64,000 nt of DNA from Microbacterium testaceum StLB037 (GTDB lineage Bacteria; Actinomycetota; Actinomycetes; Actinomycetales; Microbacteriaceae), in NCBI RefSeq assembly GCF_000202635.1, contig NC_015125.1, positions 2,046,001 to 2,110,000 of the forward strand. Direction: 5' to 3'. The notes below the pieces were generated by a model that was given only the letters and a program-made list of their open reading frames with translations, made no database searches and was not told the origin of the DNA. Below, in pieces: positions 21,183 through 31,387 of this stretch. A program made the translations under genes and the position numbers. How positions within the stretch are numbered: the first letter of the stretch is position 1; each line of letters opens with the position of its first letter.

Positions 21183-21960
21183 ATGAAGATCGTGGTGCTG
21201 ATCAAGGAAGTCCCCGACACGTGGGGCGAGCGGCGGCTCGACCTCGAGACCGGGCTGACCGACCGGGCCGCCTCGACGCCGGTGCTCGACGAGATCGACG
21301 AGCGTGCGGTCGAGGCCGCCCTCGCCCATGCCGACGCGCACCCGGGCACCGAGGTGATCGTGCTGACGATGGCGCCGGCGTCGGCTGCGGCCACCGTTCG
21401 CAAAGCCCTCGCGATGGGGGCGACGTCGGCCGTGCACGTGGTGGACGAGGCTCTGCGCGGGGCCGACCTGCTGCTGACCGCCGAGGTGCTCGCAGCGGCG
21501 ATCCGTCGGACCGGGTTCGACCTCGTGATCGCCGGGAACCTCTCGACCGACGGCGGCGGCGGCGTGCTGCCCGCGATGGTCGCCGAGCTGCTCGAGGTCC
21601 CGCAAGGTGACGGCGCTGTCGAGCCTCGCGGTGAGCGACGACGCCGTGGCCGGCGACCGCGTGAGCGATGCGGGGACGATGCGGGTGACGGCCTCGCTCC
21701 CCGCGGTCATCTCGATCACCGAGGCGCTGCCCGAGGGGCGCTTCACGACCTTCAAAGGCATCATGGCGGCGAAGAAGAAGCCCTACGAGGCGGTGGATGC
21801 CGCTGCCCTCGGCATCGACGCCGAGGATCCCGCCGTGCCGCGCTACATCATGGTGTCGGTCGCCGAGCGTCCGCCGCGGGAGGCCGGCGTCAAGATCATC
21901 GACGAGGGGGATGCGGGCGAGAAGCTCGCCGCCTTCCTCCTCGCCGAGGGGGTGGCGTGA
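21183..21960 (+). pseudogene. etfB: Electron transfer flavoprotein beta subunit, frameshifted
   Basis: The first 140 residues (to LLEVPQ) match EtfB, which holds AMP and, with EtfA, the FAD that accepts electrons from acyl-CoA dehydrogenases. At 21603-21607 one extra base (CAAGGTG where CAGGTG would fit) shifts the frame. The rest of EtfB, from VTALSSLAV to the stop at 21960, continues in the next frame and includes TTFKGIMAAKKKP, the ETF-beta signature region. The shifted frame has no stop and runs straight into etfA in frame. It is either a sequencing error or a recent mutation. AAGGAG precedes the ATG. Confidence 0.85.
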
Positions 21961-22913: not shown

Positions 22914-24956
22914 ATGGCGTCCACACCCCGCACCCCGCGTCGCGGGCTGCCGCGCGTCCCCGGCGGGGAGCCCTGGCCGCCCGCGGTGTCCGGCGCGTCG
23001 GAGGCGGATGACGACATCTCCGCGGACGGCGCGGCGCCGGGTCAGGATGCGCGGGGCGATGCCGTGGCCGTGCCCGCCTCGCAGAATCGAGCCGATCTCG
23101 CAGATTCCGCGGGGGATTCTGCGAGTTCCGCGCGAATCTCCGAGCCCGGGCCGCCCTCGGATCCGGATGCCGCCGGCTCCACGCCCGCGTCGGCGGTGCG
23201 CCGGGGGCTGCCCCGTGTTCGGGGCGGCGAGCCGTGGCCGCCGGCCACCGCGCTCGCGGATTCGGAGCATGGTGCCGGATTCGGACGCGGGAGCGAGACG
23301 GATCCGGATCCGGCGACGCCTTCCGAATCTGCGACCGCGGCGGCCTCGCAGAATGCGGCTCATCTCGCAGATTCCGCGGGGGATTCTGCGAGTTCCGCGC
23401 GAATCTCCGAGCCCGGGCCGCCCTCGGTTCCGGATGCCGCGGGCTCCTCGCCCGCGTCGGCGGTGCGCCGGGGGCTTCCCCGCGTTCGGGGCGGCGAGCC
23501 GTGGCCGCAGGCTACCGCGCTGACGGATTCGGAGCATGGTGCCGGATTCGGACGCGGGGGCGGGATCGGTCCGCATTCGGTGGCCCTTTCCGAATCTGCG
23601 ACCGCGCCCGGCTCGCAGAATGCGGCTCATCTCGCAGATTCCGCGGCGGATTCTGCGAGTTCCGCGCGAATCTCCGAGCCCGGGCCGCCCTCGGATCCGG
23701 ATGCCGCCGGCTCCACGCCCGCGGGCACGCCCGGGCGCACACCCGCTGGCCCCGCTCGCGCCGGCCACCCCCTCGCGGGTCCCACCTCCGCCGGCTCCAC
23801 CCCCGCAGGCTCTCCCCCCGCGCACCCCGATCCCGCAGGCCCCTCCCCCGCAGGCTCCACCCCCGCAGGCCCTACCCCCGCGGGAGCCGATCCCGCAGGC
23901 CCTGCCCCCGATGGCCCCACCCCCGCGGGCCCCGCCCCCGCCCCCGCCGCCCGCCCGCCCCTCGCCGTGCCGACGACGGTGTGGCCGGGGGCTGCGGCAT
24001 CCGCTCCCCGCCCCGCGAGGTCGGAGCCGAAGCGCATCGGCCCCTACACGCCGCTGCAGTGGCTCGGCTCGGCGGCCGTGCTCGGCGTCTTCGCCCTCGC
24101 GCTGGCCGGGATCGCCGTGCTGTTCGCGCGCTTCGTCCTGGCGATCGAGCCGGGGCGGGATTTCCTCGCCGCCTTCCCGGGCGAGTACGCCCTGCCCGAG
24201 GGGGCGCCGGTGGGACTGCCGGTCTGGCTGAACTGGTCGCACTTCCTCAACAGCTTCTTCCTGCTGTTCATCATCCGCTCGGGCTGGCAGGTGCGGCGAG
24301 AGAAGCGTCCCGCCGCGTTCTGGTCTCCCCGCAAGAACAAGAAGCGGCGCATCAGCCTCGCGCTGTGGTTCCATCAGGCGATCGACATCCTGTGGATCGC
24401 CAACGGCGTGATCTTCGTCGTGCTGCTGTTCGCGACGGGGCAGTGGATGCGGATCGTCCCGACCTCGTGGGAGGTCTTCCCGAACGCGGTGTCAGCAGCG
24501 TTGCAGTACGTCTCGCTGGACTGGCCGACCGAGAACGGCTGGGTGAACTACAACAGCCTGCAGCAGCTGTCGTACTTCGCGATCACCTTCATCGCGGCGC
24601 CTCTCGCGATCCTGAGCGGCGTGCGCCTCTCGGGCGTCTGGCCGAAGGATGCCGAGAAGCTCAACCGCCTCTACCCGGTGGAGTGGGCGCGCAAGATCCA
24701 CTTCCCGGTGATGCTGTTCTTCGTGGCGTTCATCGTCGTGCACGTCGCCCTCGTGCTGGCCACGGGCGCGCTGCGCAACCTCAACCACATGTACGCCGCG
24801 CGCGGCGCGGTCGACCCGGGGGAGTACACGAGCGACCCGACCGGACTGCTGATCTTCGCGGCATCCCTCCTCGCGATGGCCGCGGGGTGGGTGGCCGCGC
24901 GTCCCGCGGTTCTCGTGCCGATCGCCCGCCTGTTCGGCGACGTCAAGCAGCGCTGA
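22914..24956 (+). CDS. Membrane cytochrome b-like protein with repetitive N-terminal extension
   Basis: 680 residues. Residues 9-270 are three copies of an 87-89 residue repeat ([14 protein letters not shown]... to [11 protein letters not shown]), followed by a Pro/Ala/Gly-rich tract to about 355. The C-terminal 300 residues form the conserved part, a cytochrome b561/FdnI-like integral membrane domain. It has helices at about 385-410, 440-456, 485-508, 550-570, 595-615 and 642-662, and potential haem ligands H443, H487, H596 and H610. It starts 1 base after the etfA stop, so it is the third gene of the ETF operon and may link ETF to the membrane (inference). In the N-terminal third the repeats leave other frames open too. 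Confidence 0.78.
22940..23720 (+). repeat. Three tandem ~265-bp repeats within the cytochrome gene
   Basis: Copies begin near 22940, 23201 and 23468. Copies 2 and 3 are highly alike and offset by 267 bp. Each ends with CTCGCAGATTCCGCGG then GGATTCTGCGAGTTCCGCG, an inverted repeat of TCTGCGAG that also occurs in intergenic family D elements at 48649 and 57586. Confidence 0.85.
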
Positions 24957-25302: not shown

Positions 25303-25857
25303 TCAGACCCGCCCGCGCGCGCGTAGACCCGCGGCGATGAGGTCGAGGCCGAAGGCGAAGTCGTCCGACTCGAGGCTCGACGCCCCCGCGTCGCGGGCTC
25401 CGGCGCTGTCGTACTGCAGGCGCTGCTGCTCGTGCCAGACGAAGCCGAGCGCGTAGTGGAGCACCGTGGTCGCGCCGCGGCGCGCGGTGTCGGCGTCGAA
25501 CCCGGCGGCGGCGACCGCGCTCGCGAGCCGGTCGTGGGCGAGCGAGGACCCGAGGCCGAGCGCGAGGGTGCTCGAGACGACCTCGGCACCGTCCCGATAC
25601 GTGAGGAGCGCATCGCGCAGGGCGTGCGCTTCGGCGCCCAGGTCGACGGGGATTCCGGATGCCATCCGGCCGACGATGCGGTCCGAGAGCTCCGCGAGCA
25701 GCGTCTGCTTGTTGGGGAAGTGCCAGTACAGCGCGCTGGGCTGAACCTCGAGGGCGGTCGCGAGGCGGCGCATCGTGAGGTCGGGGAGTCCGTGGTCGTC
25801 GAGGATCCGCAGGGCGGTGCGGGCGACGTCGTCGGCGGAGTGTCCTCGAGGAGCCAT
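25303..25857 (-). CDS. bioQ: BioQ-like TetR-family repressor of biotin genes
   Basis: 184 residues: a TetR helix-turn-helix at about 8-55 (LTMRRLATALEVQPSALYWHFPNKQTLLAEL) and a TetR_C-type ligand domain. It is divergent from bioY, and the gap holds two perfect TGAACNNNGTTCA palindromes, the operator described for BioQ in corynebacteria and mycobacteria. That makes BioQ the best assignment. Transcription probably starts at the ATG: TATACT on the minus strand (25867-25872) lies 9 bases upstream. The operators sit next to this box, so it should be autoregulated. Confidence 0.82.
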   Translation of the reverse strand: MAPRGHSADDVARTALRILDDHGLPDLTMRRLATALEVQPSALYWHFPNKQTLLAELSDRIVGRMASGIPVDLGAEAHALRDALLTYRDGAEVVSSTLALGLGSSLAHDRLASAVAAAGFDADTARRGATTVLHYALGFVWHEQQRLQYDSAGARDAGASSLESDDFAFGLDLIAAGLRARGRV

Positions 25858-25866
25858 GCGTCTGAG

Positions 25867-25872
25867 TATAGT
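25867..25872 (-). promoter_or_regulatory. -10 box TATACT of the bioQ-like gene
   Basis: Minus-strand TATACT, near consensus, 9 bases before the ATG at 25857, implying a leaderless or very short leader. It abuts the first BioQ-type operator. Confidence 0.6.
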
Positions 25873-25899
25873 GAACGCTGTTCAGGTGAACAGTGTTCA
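25872..25899. promoter_or_regulatory. Two tandem BioQ-type operators
   Basis: TGAACGCTGTTCA (25872-25884) and TGAACAGTGTTCA (25887-25899) are both perfect TGAAC-N3-GTTCA palindromes with centres 15 bp apart. A degenerate third (TGACACGGTTCA) follows at 25902-25913. They lie between the divergent repressor and bioY. Confidence 0.8.
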
Positions 25900-25926
25900 G
25901 GTGACACGGTTCAGGAAAGGCCCGCC

Positions 25927-26523
25927 ATGACCCGCACTCTCGACGCCACCGACCTCGCCCGCGTGGCCGTCTTCGCCGCGCTCATCGCGGTTCTCGGTCT
26001 GCCCGGCAGCTTCCCCGTCTTCGGGGGCGTGCCCATCACCGCCCAGACGCTCGGGGTGATGCTGGCCGGAGCCGTGCTCGGTCCCTGGCTCGGCGCCCTC
26101 TCGGTGACCGTCGTGCTGGCTCTCACGGCGGCGGGCCTTCCGCTGCTCGCGGGAGGTCGCGGCGGCATCGGCGTCTTCCTCGGCCCCTCCGCCGGATACG
26201 CCCTCGGATGGATCCTCGGGGCGATCGTCATCGGTCTCCTCGTCCACGCGGGAGGCCGGCGCCCCGTCGCCTGGCGCACGGCTCTCGCCATGCTCGTCGG
26301 GGGAGTCGTGGCGATCTACGCGGTCGGCATCCCGGTGCAGAGTGCGGTGACCCGTCTGCCGCTCGGCGAGACCGCCTTGACGAGTCTCGTCTTCGTCCCG
26401 GGCGATCTGCTCAAGGCCGCCCTCGCGACCGCTGTCGTGTCGGCTCTCGTACGGGCATACCCGCGAGGGTTCCGCCGCGCCTGGACGACCCCCGCCGCCC
26501 GCGCCGCGGTCGCGTCGGCGTGA
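25927..26523 (+). CDS. bioY: Biotin ECF transporter S component BioY
   Basis: 198 residues with six membrane helices. The family hallmarks are visible: FGGVPITAQTLGVMLAGAVLGPWLGALS, AGGRGGIGVFLGPSAGYALGW and FVPGDLLKAALA. BioY binds biotin and, with BioM and BioN, imports it. GGAAAGG lies just upstream of the ATG, and two BioQ-type operators lie 28-55 bases upstream. The gene overlaps the next by GTGA. The energising components follow two genes later, with two metabolic genes in between. Confidence 0.95.
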   Translation: MTRTLDATDLARVAVFAALIAVLGLPGSFPVFGGVPITAQTLGVMLAGAVLGPWLGALSVTVVLALTAAGLPLLAGGRGGIGVFLGPSAGYALGWILGAIVIGLLVHAGGRRPVAWRTALAMLVGGVVAIYAVGIPVQSAVTRLPLGETALTSLVFVPGDLLKAALATAVVSALVRAYPRGFRRAWTTPAARAAVASA

Positions 26524-27599
26524 TCGTCACCCTCGACGGCGACGCTCCGCGGCTGTTCGAGCGGATCGCCGCGACCCGCGCCGCCGGAGACGCCGTGCTG
26601 ATCGCCGACCCGCGGTGGAGCGCCGATCAGCGCGCGGGCGTGGAGCGCGTGGCATCCGGGATCGAGGAGACGGATGCCACGGCCTGGGCGACCCTGACCT
26701 CGGGCAGCAGCGGCACCCCGCGCATCGTGCGGCGTACGGCCGCGTCGTGGACGAACTCGTTCGCGGCGGTGGCGGCGCTTCTCGACGCGGGACCCGATGA
26801 CGTCGTGGCCCTCCCTGCCCCGCCCTCGTCGTCGCTGACCCTGTACTCGCTGGCGCACGCCCTCGAGGGCGGTCCGCGTCCGGCGCTCGGTCGCGATCCC
26901 GCGGCGACGTGTCTGCACGCGACTCCGGAGGGGCTTCGCGCCGTCCTCGACGACGGATCCCTGCCGCGGTTGCGTACCGCTCTCGTCGGTGGTTCACCCC
27001 TCGACCGGGCGCTGCGGGCCCGTGCCGAAGCCTCGGGCGTGCGCGTCGTCTCGTACTACGGGGCGGCGGAGCTGTCGTTCGTCGCCGTCGACGCGGGCGA
27101 GGGATTGCGCGCCTTCCCCGGGGTCGACCTCGAGGTGCGGGGCGCCGAGGTGTGGGTGCGGTCGTCGTTCGTGGCATCCGGATATCTGGGGTCGGACGGC
27201 CCCCTGCGACGCGACGGGGAGTGGGCGACCGTCGGAGATCGCGCCGAACTGCGGGACGGACGCCTCCGCCTGCTCGGCCGCGCCGACGACGCGATCCTCA
27301 GCGCCTCGGCGACGGTCGTCCCGCACGAGGTCGAGGAGGTCCTGCGAGGGATCCCGGGCGTGCGCGACGCGGTCGTGTTCGGGATGCCGCGCCCCCGCGT
27401 CGGCGCGCTCGTGGCGGCGCTCGTCGAGCTGACGGATGCCGATCCCGCGGCGGTGCGCGCCGAGGCCGCTACCCGGCTCGGCCCCGCGCATCGTCCGCGG
27501 CGCTGGGCGTTCGGGACGATCCCGCGAACCCCCTCCGGTAAACCGGCGCGCGCCGAGGTCGCCCGTCTCGTGGAGCACGGCCGTGGCGCCGGACACTGA
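26520..27599 (+). CDS. Short AMP-forming acyl-CoA ligase-like protein in the biotin operon
   Basis: 359-residue member of the adenylate-forming superfamily, shorter than the usual 500 or more and similar in size to compact MenE-like ligases. Motifs in order: TSGSSGTPRIVRR (ATP loop, about residue 60), YYGAAE (about 180), GDRAEL, GRADDAIL hinge and TPSGKPARAE with the C-terminal lysine. The substrate is unknown. Its place between bioY and a thiolase suggests an acid linked to biotin metabolism, such as pimelate or biotin itself (inference). The GTG at 26520 overlaps the bioY stop. Confidence 0.8.
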   Translation: MIVTLDGDAPRLFERIAATRAAGDAVLIADPRWSADQRAGVERVASGIEETDATAWATLTSGSSGTPRIVRRTAASWTNSFAAVAALLDAGPDDVVALPAPPSSSLTLYSLAHALEGGPRPALGRDPAATCLHATPEGLRAVLDDGSLPRLRTALVGGSPLDRALRARAEASGVRVVSYYGAAELSFVAVDAGEGLRAFPGVDLEVRGAEVWVRSSFVASGYLGSDGPLRRDGEWATVGDRAELRDGRLRLLGRADDAILSASATVVPHEVEEVLRGIPGVRDAVVFGMPRPRVGALVAALVELTDADPAAVRAEAATRLGPAHRPRRWAFGTIPRTPSGKPARAEVARLVEHGRGAGH

Positions 27600-28689
27600 C
27601 CCGGTCGTCGTCGCGGCCCGACGCAGCCCTCTCGCCGTCCGCGGGCGCGGCCTCACCGACGTCGACGCGGGCTCCCTCGCCGGGACCGTGATCGCGGCGA
27701 CCGTCGCCGACGCCGAATCCCCGCCGATCGCGGATGTCGTCCTCGGCAATTGCACGGGACCGGGCGGCAACCTCGGCCGCATCGCCGCGCTCGCGGCCGG
27801 CCTCGGGACCGGCGTCCCCGGGGGCACCGTCGATCGGCAGTGCGGGAGCGGACTCGCGGCGATCATGGATGCCGCGCACGCGACGCGCGCCGACGGTCGG
27901 GCACGCGTGGCGGGCGGGGTCGAGAGCGCCTCGACCGCTCCCGTTCGCGTCCAGGACGGCGCGCCCTACGCCCGAGCCCCGTTCGCCCCGGCGGGCTTCG
28001 CCGACCCCGACATGCTGCGGGCCGCCGAGGATCTGGCCGCCCACGACGCTCTCACCCGCGAACGCCAGGACGCCTATGCCCGGCGCAGCCACGCCCGCGC
28101 GACGACCGCGCGGGCGTCGGGTCGCTTCGACGCGGAGATCGTGCCCGTGGCGGGCGTGAGCCGCGACGAGGGCATCGGTACGTCCGCGGCGCTGCTGGCG
28201 CGTCTCGCCCCGCTGATGACCGGAGGCACCGTGACGGCGGGCACCTCGACCCGCATCGGCGACGGAGCGGCGGCGGTCGTCGTCGCCCCCGCCGGGTCGG
28301 GGCCGGGGCTCGCCATCCGCGCTACCGCGGTCATCGGGTGCGACCCAGCCCTGCCCGGCATCGGCGCCGCCCCCGCGATCCAGGCCGCGCTCACACAGGC
28401 GGGGCGGAGCCTCACCGACGTCGCCGCGATCGAGCTCGTCGAGGCGTTCGCCGCGCAGAGCATCGCCGTGCTGTCTCGCCTCGGGCTCCGCGACGACGAC
28501 GAGAGGGTCTGCGCCGAGGGCGGAGCGCTGGCGCTGGGACACCCGTGGGGAGCGAGCGGAGCGGTCGCCGTCGTGCGCCTGTTCTCCCGCCTCGTCCGTG
28601 CGGGGGCGCCGGCGGGAACGCTGGGCCTCGCCGCGGCATCCGTGGGTGGCGGTCTCGGTGTCGCCGCCGTGTTCGAGGTCGTGCGGTGA
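27583..28689 (+). CDS. Thiolase-like protein with Ser in place of the second catalytic Cys
   Basis: 368 residues. The nucleophile C87 (DRQCGSG) and H320 (GHPWG) are kept, but the usual C-x-GGG acid/base cysteine is replaced by serine (S353 in AASVGGG). EAFAAQ at about 285 matches the NEAFA motif with N changed to V. Compared with the thiolase at 11595 it is shorter by 24 residues. It lies inside the biotin-uptake operon, starting with GTG within the end of the ligase gene. A role in forming or cleaving a 3-ketoacyl-CoA on a biotin-related acid is possible; otherwise it may be a divergent condensing enzyme. Confidence 0.8.
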   Translation: MAPDTDPVVVAARRSPLAVRGRGLTDVDAGSLAGTVIAATVADAESPPIADVVLGNCTGPGGNLGRIAALAAGLGTGVPGGTVDRQCGSGLAAIMDAAHATRADGRARVAGGVESASTAPVRVQDGAPYARAPFAPAGFADPDMLRAAEDLAAHDALTRERQDAYARRSHARATTARASGRFDAEIVPVAGVSRDEGIGTSAALLARLAPLMTGGTVTAGTSTRIGDGAAAVVVAPAGSGPGLAIRATAVIGCDPALPGIGAAPAIQAALTQAGRSLTDVAAIELVEAFAAQSIAVLSRLGLRDDDERVCAEGGALALGHPWGASGAVAVVRLFSRLVRAGAPAGTLGLAAASVGGGLGVAAVFEVVR

Positions 28690-29372
28690 GTGTCGTGCAC
28701 TGCCGCGGGCTGACCGCTCGGCTGGGCGACCGCGAGGTTCTGCAGGACGTCGCCCTCGACCTCGGGGCCCGGACCATCGCGGTCATCGGCGACAACGGTT
28801 CGGGCAAGTCGACCTTCGCCCGCCTCATCACCGGGCTCGTGCGGCGCGCGTCGGGCGAACTCGCCGTCCTCGGCCTCGATCCGGAACGGGATGCCGCCGA
28901 CCTCCGCCGTCGCGTCGCCCTCGTGCTGAGCAACCCGGACGCGCAGATCATCATGCCCACCGTCGCGGAGGACGTCGCTCTGTCGCTCCGCGCGCTGCGC
29001 CTCTCTCGCGAGGAGCGGGGTCGCCGCGTCACCGCGGTGCTCGAGCGCTTCGGGCTGGACGCGCTCGCCGACCGCGCGGCTCACGACCTGTCCGGAGGGC
29101 AGAAGCAGCTGCTCGCGCTCGCCGGTGCGTTCGTGCGCTCTCCCGACCTCGTCGTCGCCGACGAGCCGACGGCGTTCCTCGATGCACGAAACGCTCGCGC
29201 AGTCGCCGATCACCTGCTCGCCGACTTCGGGCATGCGCTGATCGTGGTCACGCACGACCTCGCTCTTGCGCGCCGGTGCGAGACGGCCGTGCTGTTCGAG
29301 GACGGCGGGGTCGTGGCATCCGGAATCGCCGCCGATGTCGTCGAGCGCTACGAACGGGCCGTGGCGTGCTGA
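28686..29372 (+). CDS. bioM: Biotin ECF transporter ATPase BioM
   Basis: 228-residue ABC ATPase with all motifs: Walker A GDNGSGKST (about 37-45), Q-loop, signature LSGGQKQ, Walker B LVVADEP, D-loop FLDA and H-loop VVTHD. Small size and the neighbour BioN fit an ECF A component. The GTG at 28686 overlaps the thiolase stop (GTGA). With BioN it couples ATP hydrolysis to biotin uptake by BioY. Confidence 0.92.
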   Translation: MSVVHCRGLTARLGDREVLQDVALDLGARTIAVIGDNGSGKSTFARLITGLVRRASGELAVLGLDPERDAADLRRRVALVLSNPDAQIIMPTVAEDVALSLRALRLSREERGRRVTAVLERFGLDALADRAAHDLSGGQKQLLALAGAFVRSPDLVVADEPTAFLDARNARAVADHLLADFGHALIVVTHDLALARRCETAVLFEDGGVVASGIAADVVERYERAVAC

Positions 29373-29974
29373 GCGTGTTCCGCCCCGGGAGGGGATGGCT
29401 GCACCGGATGCCGGCCGGCCCGAAGCTCGCCCTCTTCGCGGTCGTGGCGGTCGTCGTCGCGGCGCTGCCTCCGGTGTGGGCGACGGTTCCGGTGGCGGTG
29501 GTGGTGCCCGTGGCCCTGTATGCCGTGGCGGGAATGGGGTTGGGCGCGGGCCTTCGCGCGCTCGGCGGTCAGGTCTGCGCGCTCCGCTGGATGATCGCGA
29601 TCACGGCGGCGGGGCAGCTGATCTTCCTCGGGCTCGAGCCGGCCGCAGCCAACACCGCGCGCGTTGCCGCAGCGGTTCTCGTCGCGGGGCTGGTGCCGCT
29701 GACCACGCCCGTCTCCGCGATGCTCGATGCGCTCGAGCGGGGGCTCCGGCCGCTGCGCCTCGTCGGTATCGATCCGGCGCGCGTCGCACTGCTCTGGATG
29801 GTGACGCTCACGACGATCCCCGTCCTCGCCCGCCACGCCGCCGAGGTCCGCGATGCCCAGCGGGCGCGGGGGCTGCGCCCCTCGCTCCTGCGCGGGACCC
29901 TGCCGTTCCTCGTCGTCGCCCTGCGTCACGCCGACGATCTGGGCGACGCGCTCGCGGCCCGCGGCATCCGCTGA
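29366..29974 (+). CDS. bioN: Biotin ECF transporter T component BioN
   Basis: 202 residues with four or five membrane helices. The C-terminal cytoplasmic coupling helix carries ARG motifs (AQRARGLR and AARGIR), typical of EcfT proteins that dock on the ATPase. The GTG at 29366 overlaps the BioM gene by 7 bases; a GTG at 29375 is an alternative. It ends the biotin operon; a palindromic repeat follows before the convergent cofE. Confidence 0.9.
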   Translation: MLSVFRPGRGWLHRMPAGPKLALFAVVAVVVAALPPVWATVPVAVVVPVALYAVAGMGLGAGLRALGGQVCALRWMIAITAAGQLIFLGLEPAAANTARVAAAVLVAGLVPLTTPVSAMLDALERGLRPLRLVGIDPARVALLWMVTLTTIPVLARHAAEVRDAQRARGLRPSLLRGTLPFLVVALRHADDLGDALAARGIR

Positions 29975-30126: not shown

Positions 30127-30879
30127 TCAGTCGCGCGCGGCGCGGCCCGCCGCGAAGCCCTCGGCGTACGCCTCGTCGGCGCCCTGGCGGAACATGTCGC
30201 GCTCGGGGTCGCGCACGATCGAGCGCGCGCCGGGGAGGTCGAGCTCTCCCACCAGGTCTCCGCGCCCGCGCACGATCGCGACGGGGCGGCGCGACGCCTT
30301 GCCCTTGACGAGGTCGGTGGCCGCGGCGAGCTCATCGGCCACGCACGGCAGGGTCACGACGAGCGGGCGGCCCTCGGCATCCACCGTTCCGCGGAGGTCT
30401 TCGAAGACATGGATGCCGCCGGCCCCGATCGCGTGATCCGTCTGCCCCTCGCGCCACGCGCGGCCGAGGGTGTCGGTGATGATCACGCCGACCCGGGCGA
30501 CGGCGCGCAGCCCCTCGGCGATGCGCCGCGCGGAGGCGTCGGGGTCGACGGGGAGGAGGAGCACCGTGCCCTCGGGGGTGTTGCTGGCGTCGACTCCCGC
30601 GGCGGCCGAGACGATCCCCAGGGGGTTCTCGACGATCCGGGTCACGTGTCCGGTGGGGGAGGTGCGGGATGCCACGAGCCGCACGGTCTCGCGCGTGATG
30701 GCGTCCTCGCGGTCCGAGGCCCGGATGATCCGCCCCTCGGCCTTCGACACGATCTTGCTCGTGACGACGACGATGTCGCCGTCCTGGAGCGGTTCCGTGA
30801 GGGCATCCAGGATCACCCGGACGAGGTCGTCCCCCGGGGTGATCTCACGGATGCCGTCGAGGGCCCAGACCTGCAGCAC
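30127..30879 (-). CDS. cofE: Coenzyme F420-0:L-glutamate ligase
   Basis: 250 residues, the size of the stand-alone archaeal-type CofE rather than the longer FbiB fusion of mycobacteria. Landmarks are [10 protein letters not shown] near the start, [33 protein letters not shown] and the metal-binding [21 protein letters not shown] segment. It adds the first glutamates to F420-0 using GTP. The GTG at 30879 starts 1 base after the GNAT stop, so the two genes are co-transcribed. No other F420 gene is in the window. Confidence 0.9.
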
Positions 30880-30880
30880 G

Positions 30881-31387
30881 TCAGCGGACGAAGCGCACCT
30901 CGGTGAGCTCCTCACCGAGGAAGGGTTCCACGTGCGAGGCGCCGTCGAGCGCGAAGCCGTTGCGGGTGTAGAAGCGGTGCGCGCGCGGGTTGTCGTCGGC
31001 GACCCAGAGGTACGCGCCCTCGTCGGCGTCGATCGCGGCGTCGAAGAGCTGCTGGCCGATGCCGGTGCCGTGGAAGGCATCGAGAAGGTAGATGAAGTAC
31101 AGCTCGCGCTCGCGCGGAGCGTCGTCGTCGCGAGCGGGACCAGAGCCGACGAAGCCGACGATCTCGCCGTCGACGAGCGCGGCGTGCATCCGGTAGTCGT
31201 CGCCCTGGGAGGCCCAGTGGGTCCAGAGCTCGGCCATGCGGCGGGGGGAGACGGCTTTGAGGGCCGCTTCGCTGATCAGGTGATCGTAGGTCTCGTGCCA
31301 ACAGGTGGCGTGCACGCGGCCGAGGGCCTCGGCATCCACGTCGCGCACCGGACGGACGACGATGTCGGTTCGGGGTTCGGCGGTCAT
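30881..31387 (-). CDS. GNAT-family N-acetyltransferase
   Basis: 168 residues with the acetyl-CoA-binding segment [19 protein letters not shown] (R/Q-x-x-G-x-G/A form with a changed first position) followed by the [21 protein letters not shown] strand-helix. The substrate is unknown. A minus-strand TAGAGT box lies 6 bases upstream of the ATG, indicating a leaderless message. It leads into cofE with only one base between. Confidence 0.85.

Follow-up and report, generated by a model that had tools for sequence, protein, structure and literature searches.

Within a stretch of 64,000 nucleotides from Microbacterium testaceum StLB037 (NC_015125.1, positions 2,046,001 to 2,110,000; the whole stretch is called the window here), a five-gene operon combines a predicted biotin importer of the energy-coupling factor (ECF) type with an adenylate-forming ligase and a thiolase-like protein. 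The ligase-thiolase pair is the actinobacterial form of the known, biotin-regulated yhfT-yhfS pair of Bacillus. Tentatively, and with rather less than even confidence, we read the pair as a biotin-starvation module by which a short acid brought into the cell is activated and then lengthened by two carbons, likeliest in the rebuilding of clipped biotin side chains. Acyl elongation linked to biotin is the part of this reading that we hold to be slightly probable. A nor-biotin as the substrate is a doubtful proposal, and equally doubtful is the wider idea of biotin salvage by side-chain rebuilding from bisnorbiotin or tetranorbiotin across Actinomycetota and Bacilli, auxotrophs included.

The operon lies on the + strand in the order bioY, ligase, thiolase, bioM and bioN, as an earlier note on this DNA had described it, and coordinates and Pfam domains confirm this order. 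bioY (25927..26523) encodes the S component (PF02632, 5.3e-34), whose sole match in the PDB is 4dve BioY (2.6e-25). It is followed by the gene of the YhfT-family ligase (26520..27599, 359 amino acids, AMP-binding and AMP-binding_C domains with a short N-domain), that of the YhfS-family thiolase-like protein (27583..28689, 368 amino acids, Thiolase_N/C), bioM for the importer ATPase (28686..29372, ABC_tran; ECF_ATPase_1 at 1.8e-48, under the cut-off) and bioN for the T component (29375..29974, CbiQ family, 3.3e-12). S, A and T components are present in one operon in the form of BioY, ABC_tran and CbiQ proteins, and these motifs point to a biotin importer of the BioYMN type. The genes had been described as joined by overlapping starts throughout; the start codon overlaps the previous stop at three of the four junctions, but bioM ends at 29372 and the first ordinary bioN start is the GTG at 29375, within an open frame that begins with CTG at 29369. 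The ligase adjoins the thiolase ortholog in all 15 other carrier genomes of the window's family, so the arrangement is more than a chance neighbourhood.

Two perfect TGAACNNNGTTCA sites, TGAACGCTGTTCA at 25872..25884 and TGAACAGTGTTCA at 25887..25899, separate bioY from a divergent gene for a TetR-type regulator (25303..25857, minus strand, TetR_N and TetR_C_1). TGAAC-N3-GTTCA is the consensus quoted for BioQ in the available text of PMC3398298, and the window has the operators at bio genes that would be expected of a BioQ regulon. With up to one mismatch allowed, the window holds three such sites; shuffled sequences hold 0.33 on average and none of 100 shuffles reaches three, which upholds the earlier identification of BioQ-type sites. 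Position and TetR domains make the divergent gene a candidate bioQ. The 3.98-Mb genome contains one more perfect TGAACNNNGTTCA site, at 3227492 (about 4993 in L004), where an NAD_binding_2 and a 2-Hacid_dh gene diverge and an IclR gene is near. About 0.5 further perfect sites would be expected genome-wide by chance at the base composition of the window; with a number at chance level and neighbours not obviously related to biotin, this site was rejected as a biotin-linked operator.

The pair is patchy in its distribution. An ortholog of the thiolase is present in 16 of 120 genomes of the window's family (the window's included), with a clear score gap to paralogues, and in 50 of 297 genomes of the order at a score of at least 314 bits, which none of the 12 other genomes of the same genus among those listed reaches. 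In a phylum-level sample, 15 of 346 genomes exceeded the threshold; four were already known carriers, and among the 11 newly taken in, four are true members by residues, linkage and masked tree and seven are canonical thiolases. The resulting actinobacterial set comprises 62 loci, 15 from the window's family and 47 further ones, and its gene-order counts were read by eye from locus maps. The ligase adjoins the thiolase in 61 of them. One odd locus, L119, has thiolase, bioM and bioN and no ligase match. The survey of gene order proposed in the earlier note finds the pair well beyond the window's genome, with the full order bioY-ligase-thiolase-bioM-bioN in 39 of the 62 loci (in one, bioN lies 2 kb apart). 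At least one homologue of bioY, bioM or bioN is near the pair in 54 loci and importer genes are lacking in eight; in one family group the pair is convergent with bioYMN (eight loci). Two loci (L112, L117) are cut by contig ends, and L050, with a 43% identical thiolase and no ligase, was excluded from the ortholog set. Altogether, linkage of the pair to genes for biotin import extends over twelve family groups of actinobacteria and into Bacilli. Two further arrangements were seen in passing: in one family group (L125-L135) the pair and bioYMN lie beside open reading frames that read like suf iron-sulphur cluster genes, and L301, from a distant actinobacterial carrier, has the order bioY-thiolase-bioM-bioN with a longer ligase match behind bioN.

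Genomes without the pair also carry the importer, and 8 of 20 compared regions, one of them from a congener (L311), have an uninterrupted series of bioQ, operator sites, bioY, bioM and bioN. Conversely, L040 and L046 have the pair by itself, preceded by a perfect BioQ site, and the bioYMN genes of the same genomes are found elsewhere with sites of their own (L327 and L329, respectively). Because both pair-less importers and stand-alone pairs exist, the pair looks like an accessory to biotin import under the same kind of control. A bioQ homologue is divergent from bioY in 9 of the 15 other family loci and also in L091-L098, and 18 of the 62 actinobacterial loci have perfect BioQ sites at most 250 bp ahead of the operon. 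Among the Bacilli, 17 of 21 loci have their best BirA-type palindrome upstream of the operon, a few with a weak match (12 of 16 positions), as do 16 of another 20 loci from one family (14 or 15 of 16 positions). Matches of this kind predict operators of the BioQ or the BirA type for the pair operons. The BioY proteins themselves were compared for a distinct specificity, and this was rejected: at the thresholds used no position separates the 55 pair-linked actinobacterial BioY from 20 others, a comparison set that includes paralogues and three proteins from pair-bearing genomes. Two motifs do differ in frequency, namely the PGDxxK box (54/55 versus 13/20) and GGRGG (43/55 versus 5/20), so the substrates may nevertheless differ.

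Several lines of sequence comparison place the thiolase with Bacillus YhfS and, less firmly, the ligase with YhfT. Among NCBIfam models, the window thiolase matches PRK06690 at 1.7e-73, with 247.9 bits against a cut-off of 498, which is exceeded by Bacillus spizizenii and 10 of 250 sampled Bacilli genomes; among 14 control genomes only B. subtilis and one other match this model, one of them above the cut-off. The window ligase matches best PRK07824, a MenE model (3.1e-30), followed by PRK07638 (1.2e-27; 96.6 bits, cut-off 518), both under their cut-offs. In a thiolase tree with five diagnostic columns masked, which is unrooted and comes from a quick search, a single branch separates 60 family rows, the window thiolase and Bacillus YhfS among them, from 25 canonical rows with a Shimodaira-Hasegawa-like approximate likelihood ratio (SH-aLRT) support of 98. 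Two Bacilli thiolases (L235, L237) and the seven phylum-level ones had been placed in the canonical set by motifs, and masked and full trees agree. In the ligase tree, the YhfT-type ligases lie on one side of a branch with an SH-aLRT of 87; branches are long and no known MenE row is included. About half of the actinobacterial rows are omitted from the trees. An RxxxSWxxS motif behind the ATP loop is shared by 59 of the 62 pair ligases from actinobacteria and all 21 from Bacilli; 27 adenylate-forming enzymes of other kinds and the MenE chain in the alignment lack it, a distribution that favours YhfT-family membership of the window ligase. A second motif, YYGxxELS, was dropped because, although present in 61 of the 62 actinobacterial ligases, it occurs in no more than 11 of the 21 from Bacilli. 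AlphaFold models of the single window proteins (mean predicted local distance difference test scores of 39.9 and 38.1) are too low in confidence for a comparison of folds.

The biotin control of this pair is not new, and the earlier note's suggestion of an undescribed route has to be given up to that extent. A regulon paper of 2002 reportedly discusses yhfS-yhfT. The B. subtilis yhfUTS genes are described as a BirA target (PMC4016012), and the S. aureus yhfS-yhfT pair as BirA-regulated (PMC6391492, PMC7235819); the portions of these papers that were available give no function for yhfT-yhfS. The order yhfU-yhfT-yhfS, read in B. spizizenii as bioY-like gene, ligase and thiolase, corresponds to that of the window, as do the protein families, the biotin-type operator upstream and the loss of one catalytic cysteine (Cys378). 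Unlike yhfUTS, the window operon has a BioQ-type operator and continues with bioM and bioN, its ligase is about 120 residues shorter and its thiolase also lacks Asn316. The S. aureus pair shares biotin repression of a ligase and a thiolase, and differs in belonging to a transcription unit separate from bioY, to another regulator and to another phylum. Corynebacterium glutamicum BioYMN, in turn, is an actinobacterial biotin ECF importer with TGAAC-N3-GTTCA BioQ sites, whereas the accessible text of PMC3398298 mentions no ligase or thiolase in that operon. What is new, apart from what is already known in Bacillus and Staphylococcus, is the actinobacterial form with BioQ-type operators, the thiolase base missing from the whole family, the elongation operons, the absence of bioB from most actinobacterial carriers and the breadth of the linkage to biotin-import genes. 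Among the literature matches listed, mostly non-subscription papers, none reports the first three of these.

The earlier note had called the thiolase atypical, and the residue pattern bears this out. The catalytic residues of thiolases are the nucleophile Cys89, the pair of Asn316 and His348 that holds the enolate, and Cys378 as the base (PMC3406046; see also PMC4595758). The window protein keeps the nucleophile (Cys87) and the histidine of the GHP motif (His320), has Ser353 in place of Cys378 and Val286 in place of Asn316, and so retains two of the four residues of a canonical Claisen thiolase. Throughout the family, all 108 members keep the nucleophile and the GHP histidine, all have Ser, Ala or Gly in the position of the base, where each of 25 canonical thiolases has Cys, and all have an aromatic residue directly after GHP, where the 25 canonical ones have an aliphatic one. 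Asn316, within NEAF, is found in each of the 41 Bacilli members, whereas 50 of the 67 from actinobacteria have another residue there. With such a pattern, ordinary acetyl-CoA condensation is unlikely. A Cys-His-Asn set without the base could fit decarboxylating condensing enzymes such as BioZ, with plain acyl transfer, as in PhlC, as the alternative. BioZ, a β-ketoacyl-acyl carrier protein (ACP) synthase (KAS) III-type enzyme, resembles the proposed working of the pair in its acyl-CoA primer, its cysteine-based condensation and the ensuing reduction by type II fatty acid synthesis (FAS II); it is derived from FabH and feeds de novo synthesis, and the likeness lies in the proposed mechanism (PMC8024396). 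Its triad is present in all 41 Bacilli members, and the window has lost the Asn.

Operons of Bacilli in which the pair is accompanied by further enzymes speak most directly for elongation, and lend support to the earlier note's proposal of a pair that activates a biotin-related acid and makes it longer. L247 and L251 share the order ligase, thiolase, HadA-like gene, MaoC, short-chain dehydrogenase/reductase (SDR), EcfA1, EcfA2, EcfT and FabK-like gene, and L251 has bioY in front as well. Partial versions are found in L241 and L245 (two dehydratase-like genes with MaoC match behind the thiolase), L249, L252 and L253 (SDR with the pair) and L248 and L257 (FabK-like gene ahead of the thiolase); companions of this kind are lacking in L246 and L250, and L254-L256 have short, mutually similar genes behind the thiolase to which Pfam gives no clear name. 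In the family sample around G577 the thiolase occurs in 33 of 245 genomes, and 20 of the 33 carriers were examined, all with thiolases at least 70% identical to the query. The SDR adjoins the pair in 20 of these 20 loci, both dehydratase subunits in 19, and the FabK-like gene is present in 15, EcfA1A2T in 13 and bioY in 11. The loci L368-L372 have the genes for ligase, thiolase, two dehydratase subunits, SDR and FabK-like protein in an unbroken row, with no bioY or Ecf genes, and the best BirA-type palindrome of each locus lies in front of this row; L367 is alike and cut upstream by a contig end, before the expected position of bioY. The accessory genes match the FabG model (5.5e-56), HadA and HadB models and the FabK model TIGR03151 (2.7e-84), all under the NCBIfam cut-offs, so that these names are '-like' in the literal sense; Pfam names them MaoC, adh_short and NMO, and CbiQ for the EcfT gene of L251. 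Judged from these matches, the operons of this Bacilli family would encode a complete reductive elongation cycle, with FabG-like, two HadAB/MaoC-like and FabK-like enzymes.

The same enzymes bear on the opposite proposal, a shortening or degradation of the side chain by thiolysis, which the earlier note had also considered. It is disfavoured and was rejected, because the thiolase base is missing, the accessory enzymes are of the reductive FabG/HadAB/FabK type and no gene like an acyl-CoA dehydrogenase was seen directly beside the pair. In L249 and L252 a gene whose start seems, as read by eye, to resemble acyl-CoA dehydrogenases lies about 4.5 kb past the pair, beyond other genes and outside the operon.

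The survey of biotin synthesis covered bioB and, in the family sample, bioF. A bioB over the cut-off is found in one of the 16 carriers of the window's family, in 11 of the other 47 from actinobacteria and in 17 of the 21 from Bacilli; it is absent in 51 of 63 actinobacterial carriers (15/16 and 36/47) and in 4 of 21 Bacilli carriers. The expectation that carriers lack biotin synthase thus holds for most actinobacteria but fails for most Bacilli. No bioB over the cut-off was found in G577 and G599, genomes with complete elongation sets (L251 and L247, respectively). None of the 120 genomes of the window's family has a bioF over the cut-off, a strict one under which the match beside bioB in G078 also falls, so the absence of bioF is not firm; matches with E below 1e-100 were not counted as BioF, none having reached the cut-off, and the one in G078 may be real. 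The sole carrier of the window's family with a biotin synthase is G070, where two perfect BioQ-type sites, 1 bp apart (L330, 5247-5273), lie about 0.3 kb upstream of bioB.

From these observations we infer the following steps. BioY would import a short carboxylic acid, which the ligase would activate. The thiolase-like protein would take the acyl group onto its cysteine and join it to a two-carbon unit; as the thiolase base is missing, a malonyl donor used by decarboxylation, as in BioZ and FabH-type enzymes, is probable. Reduction and dehydration would be left to the dedicated FabG-, HadAB- and FabK-like enzymes in the one Bacilli family and, in the window, to the ordinary fatty-acid enzymes of the cell. 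A ring-bearing acid, that is, clipped biotin, would fit best, because genomes without bioB cannot use the product as a precursor of the ring. The likeliest acid would be bisnorbiotin or tetranorbiotin, and the module, in actinobacteria presumably induced by biotin starvation, would rebuild usable biotin in cells that are unable to make it. Soil microbes are among the producers of nor-biotins. Limited catabolism of biotin to bisnorbiotin may exist in humans too (PMC11203980).

A number of observations weigh against this reading. The window operon contains no reductase or dehydratase gene, and the 62 actinobacterial loci give no dehydratase or FabK-like match and scattered SDR matches in six, so the role of the actinobacterial pair may be narrower. 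Loss of Asn316 in the window and in most actinobacterial members would speak against the making of a C-C bond by these proteins. In the nine loci of the Bacillus type (L208, L238-L245), the pair is followed by neither an SDR nor a FabK-like gene, and dehydratase-like genes occur in two of nine. The 20 loci with extended operons are a selected sample, given their identity threshold, and of seven carriers at 64-66% identity the two examined, L249 and L252, have the SDR alone. Outside three family groups there are few perfect BioQ sites, and a good number of carriers produce their own biotin, as the Bacilli with bioB illustrate.

Since the loss of Asn316 makes condensation in the window less certain, a role in acyl transfer only is kept as a live rival, although an improbable one. 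The ligase would trap the imported vitamin as biotinyl-CoA or a related thioester, and the thiolase would move or hydrolyse the acyl group and form no C-C bond. The family-wide loss of Cys378, the frequent loss of Asn316 and the retention of the nucleophile and His suit this proposal, and PhlC of PpATase, a thiolase-superfamily acyltransferase, likewise keeps Cys and His (PMC6392133), but PhlC belongs to a three-subunit complex, and no ligase partner appears in the consulted part of that paper. The reductase-, dehydratase- and enoyl-reductase-like genes behind the pair would be best understood with a 3-oxoacyl product, at least in those Bacilli. Marginally less improbable is the scavenging of fatty acids: with acetyl-CoA carboxylase short of biotin, the ligase would activate outside fatty acids and its companions would lengthen them or load them for membrane lipids. 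This would account for the biotin control, for the independence from bioB and for accessory enzymes resembling those of fatty-acid synthesis. However, the position of the pair between bioY and bioM/bioN in 39 of 62 loci suggests a substrate that enters via BioY, and bulk elongation free of malonyl-CoA needs the thiolase base that all 108 members have lost.

The supply of a pimelate-type, C7 dicarboxyl precursor from glutarate or a similar acid, in the manner of BioZ and for biotin synthesis, is a little less probable still than acyl transfer. BioZ condenses glutaryl-CoA with malonyl-ACP by means of its Cys-His-Asn triad (PMC8024396), the three residues are kept in all Bacilli members and most Bacilli carriers have bioB. 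Pimelate, one of the acids named in the earlier note, is nevertheless unlikely because 51 of 63 actinobacterial carriers have no bioB; four of the 21 Bacilli carriers, among them the genomes G577 and G599 with complete elongation sets, lack it as well, and the family genomes add the absence of bioF, with the reservation made above. Far less probable than any of these is a function in the supply of pantothenate or CoA with mere co-regulation by biotin, for which a genetic report that B. subtilis YhfU carries pantothenate (as the transporter PanU) provides the argument and which would also count against elongation of a biotin-related acid. The PGDxxK box of nearly all pair-linked actinobacterial BioY, the biotin transporter as sole PDB match of the window BioY and the operators of two biotin types stand against it. 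Taken together, the interpretation given in the earlier note is partly supported.

Outside the operon, three features of the window were recorded. A gene convergent with bioN (30127-31080, minus strand) encodes a protein with an F420-0:gamma-glutamyl ligase domain (PF01996). An open reading frame of 680 residues (22914-24956, plus strand) begins with long Pro/Ala/Gly-rich repeats, followed by a weak cytochrome b561-type match. An etfB-like gene (21183 to about 21960, plus strand, ETF domain) shows a frame shift near 21610: its first half follows the frame of the start, its C-terminal, EtfB-like part is read one frame on, and an EtfA-like gene comes next. Either a genuine change of frame or an error of sequencing could explain this.

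The independence from bioB, the family-wide loss of the base and the elongation cycle predicted in one Bacilli family narrow the open question of yhfT-yhfS function to a short list of assays. A family of thiolases that lack the base is of enzymological interest whatever its substrate. If the substrate were indeed a nor-biotin, bacteria would recycle the breakdown products of biotin, which would bear on the exchange of vitamins among microbes and on the tolerance of biotin auxotrophy.

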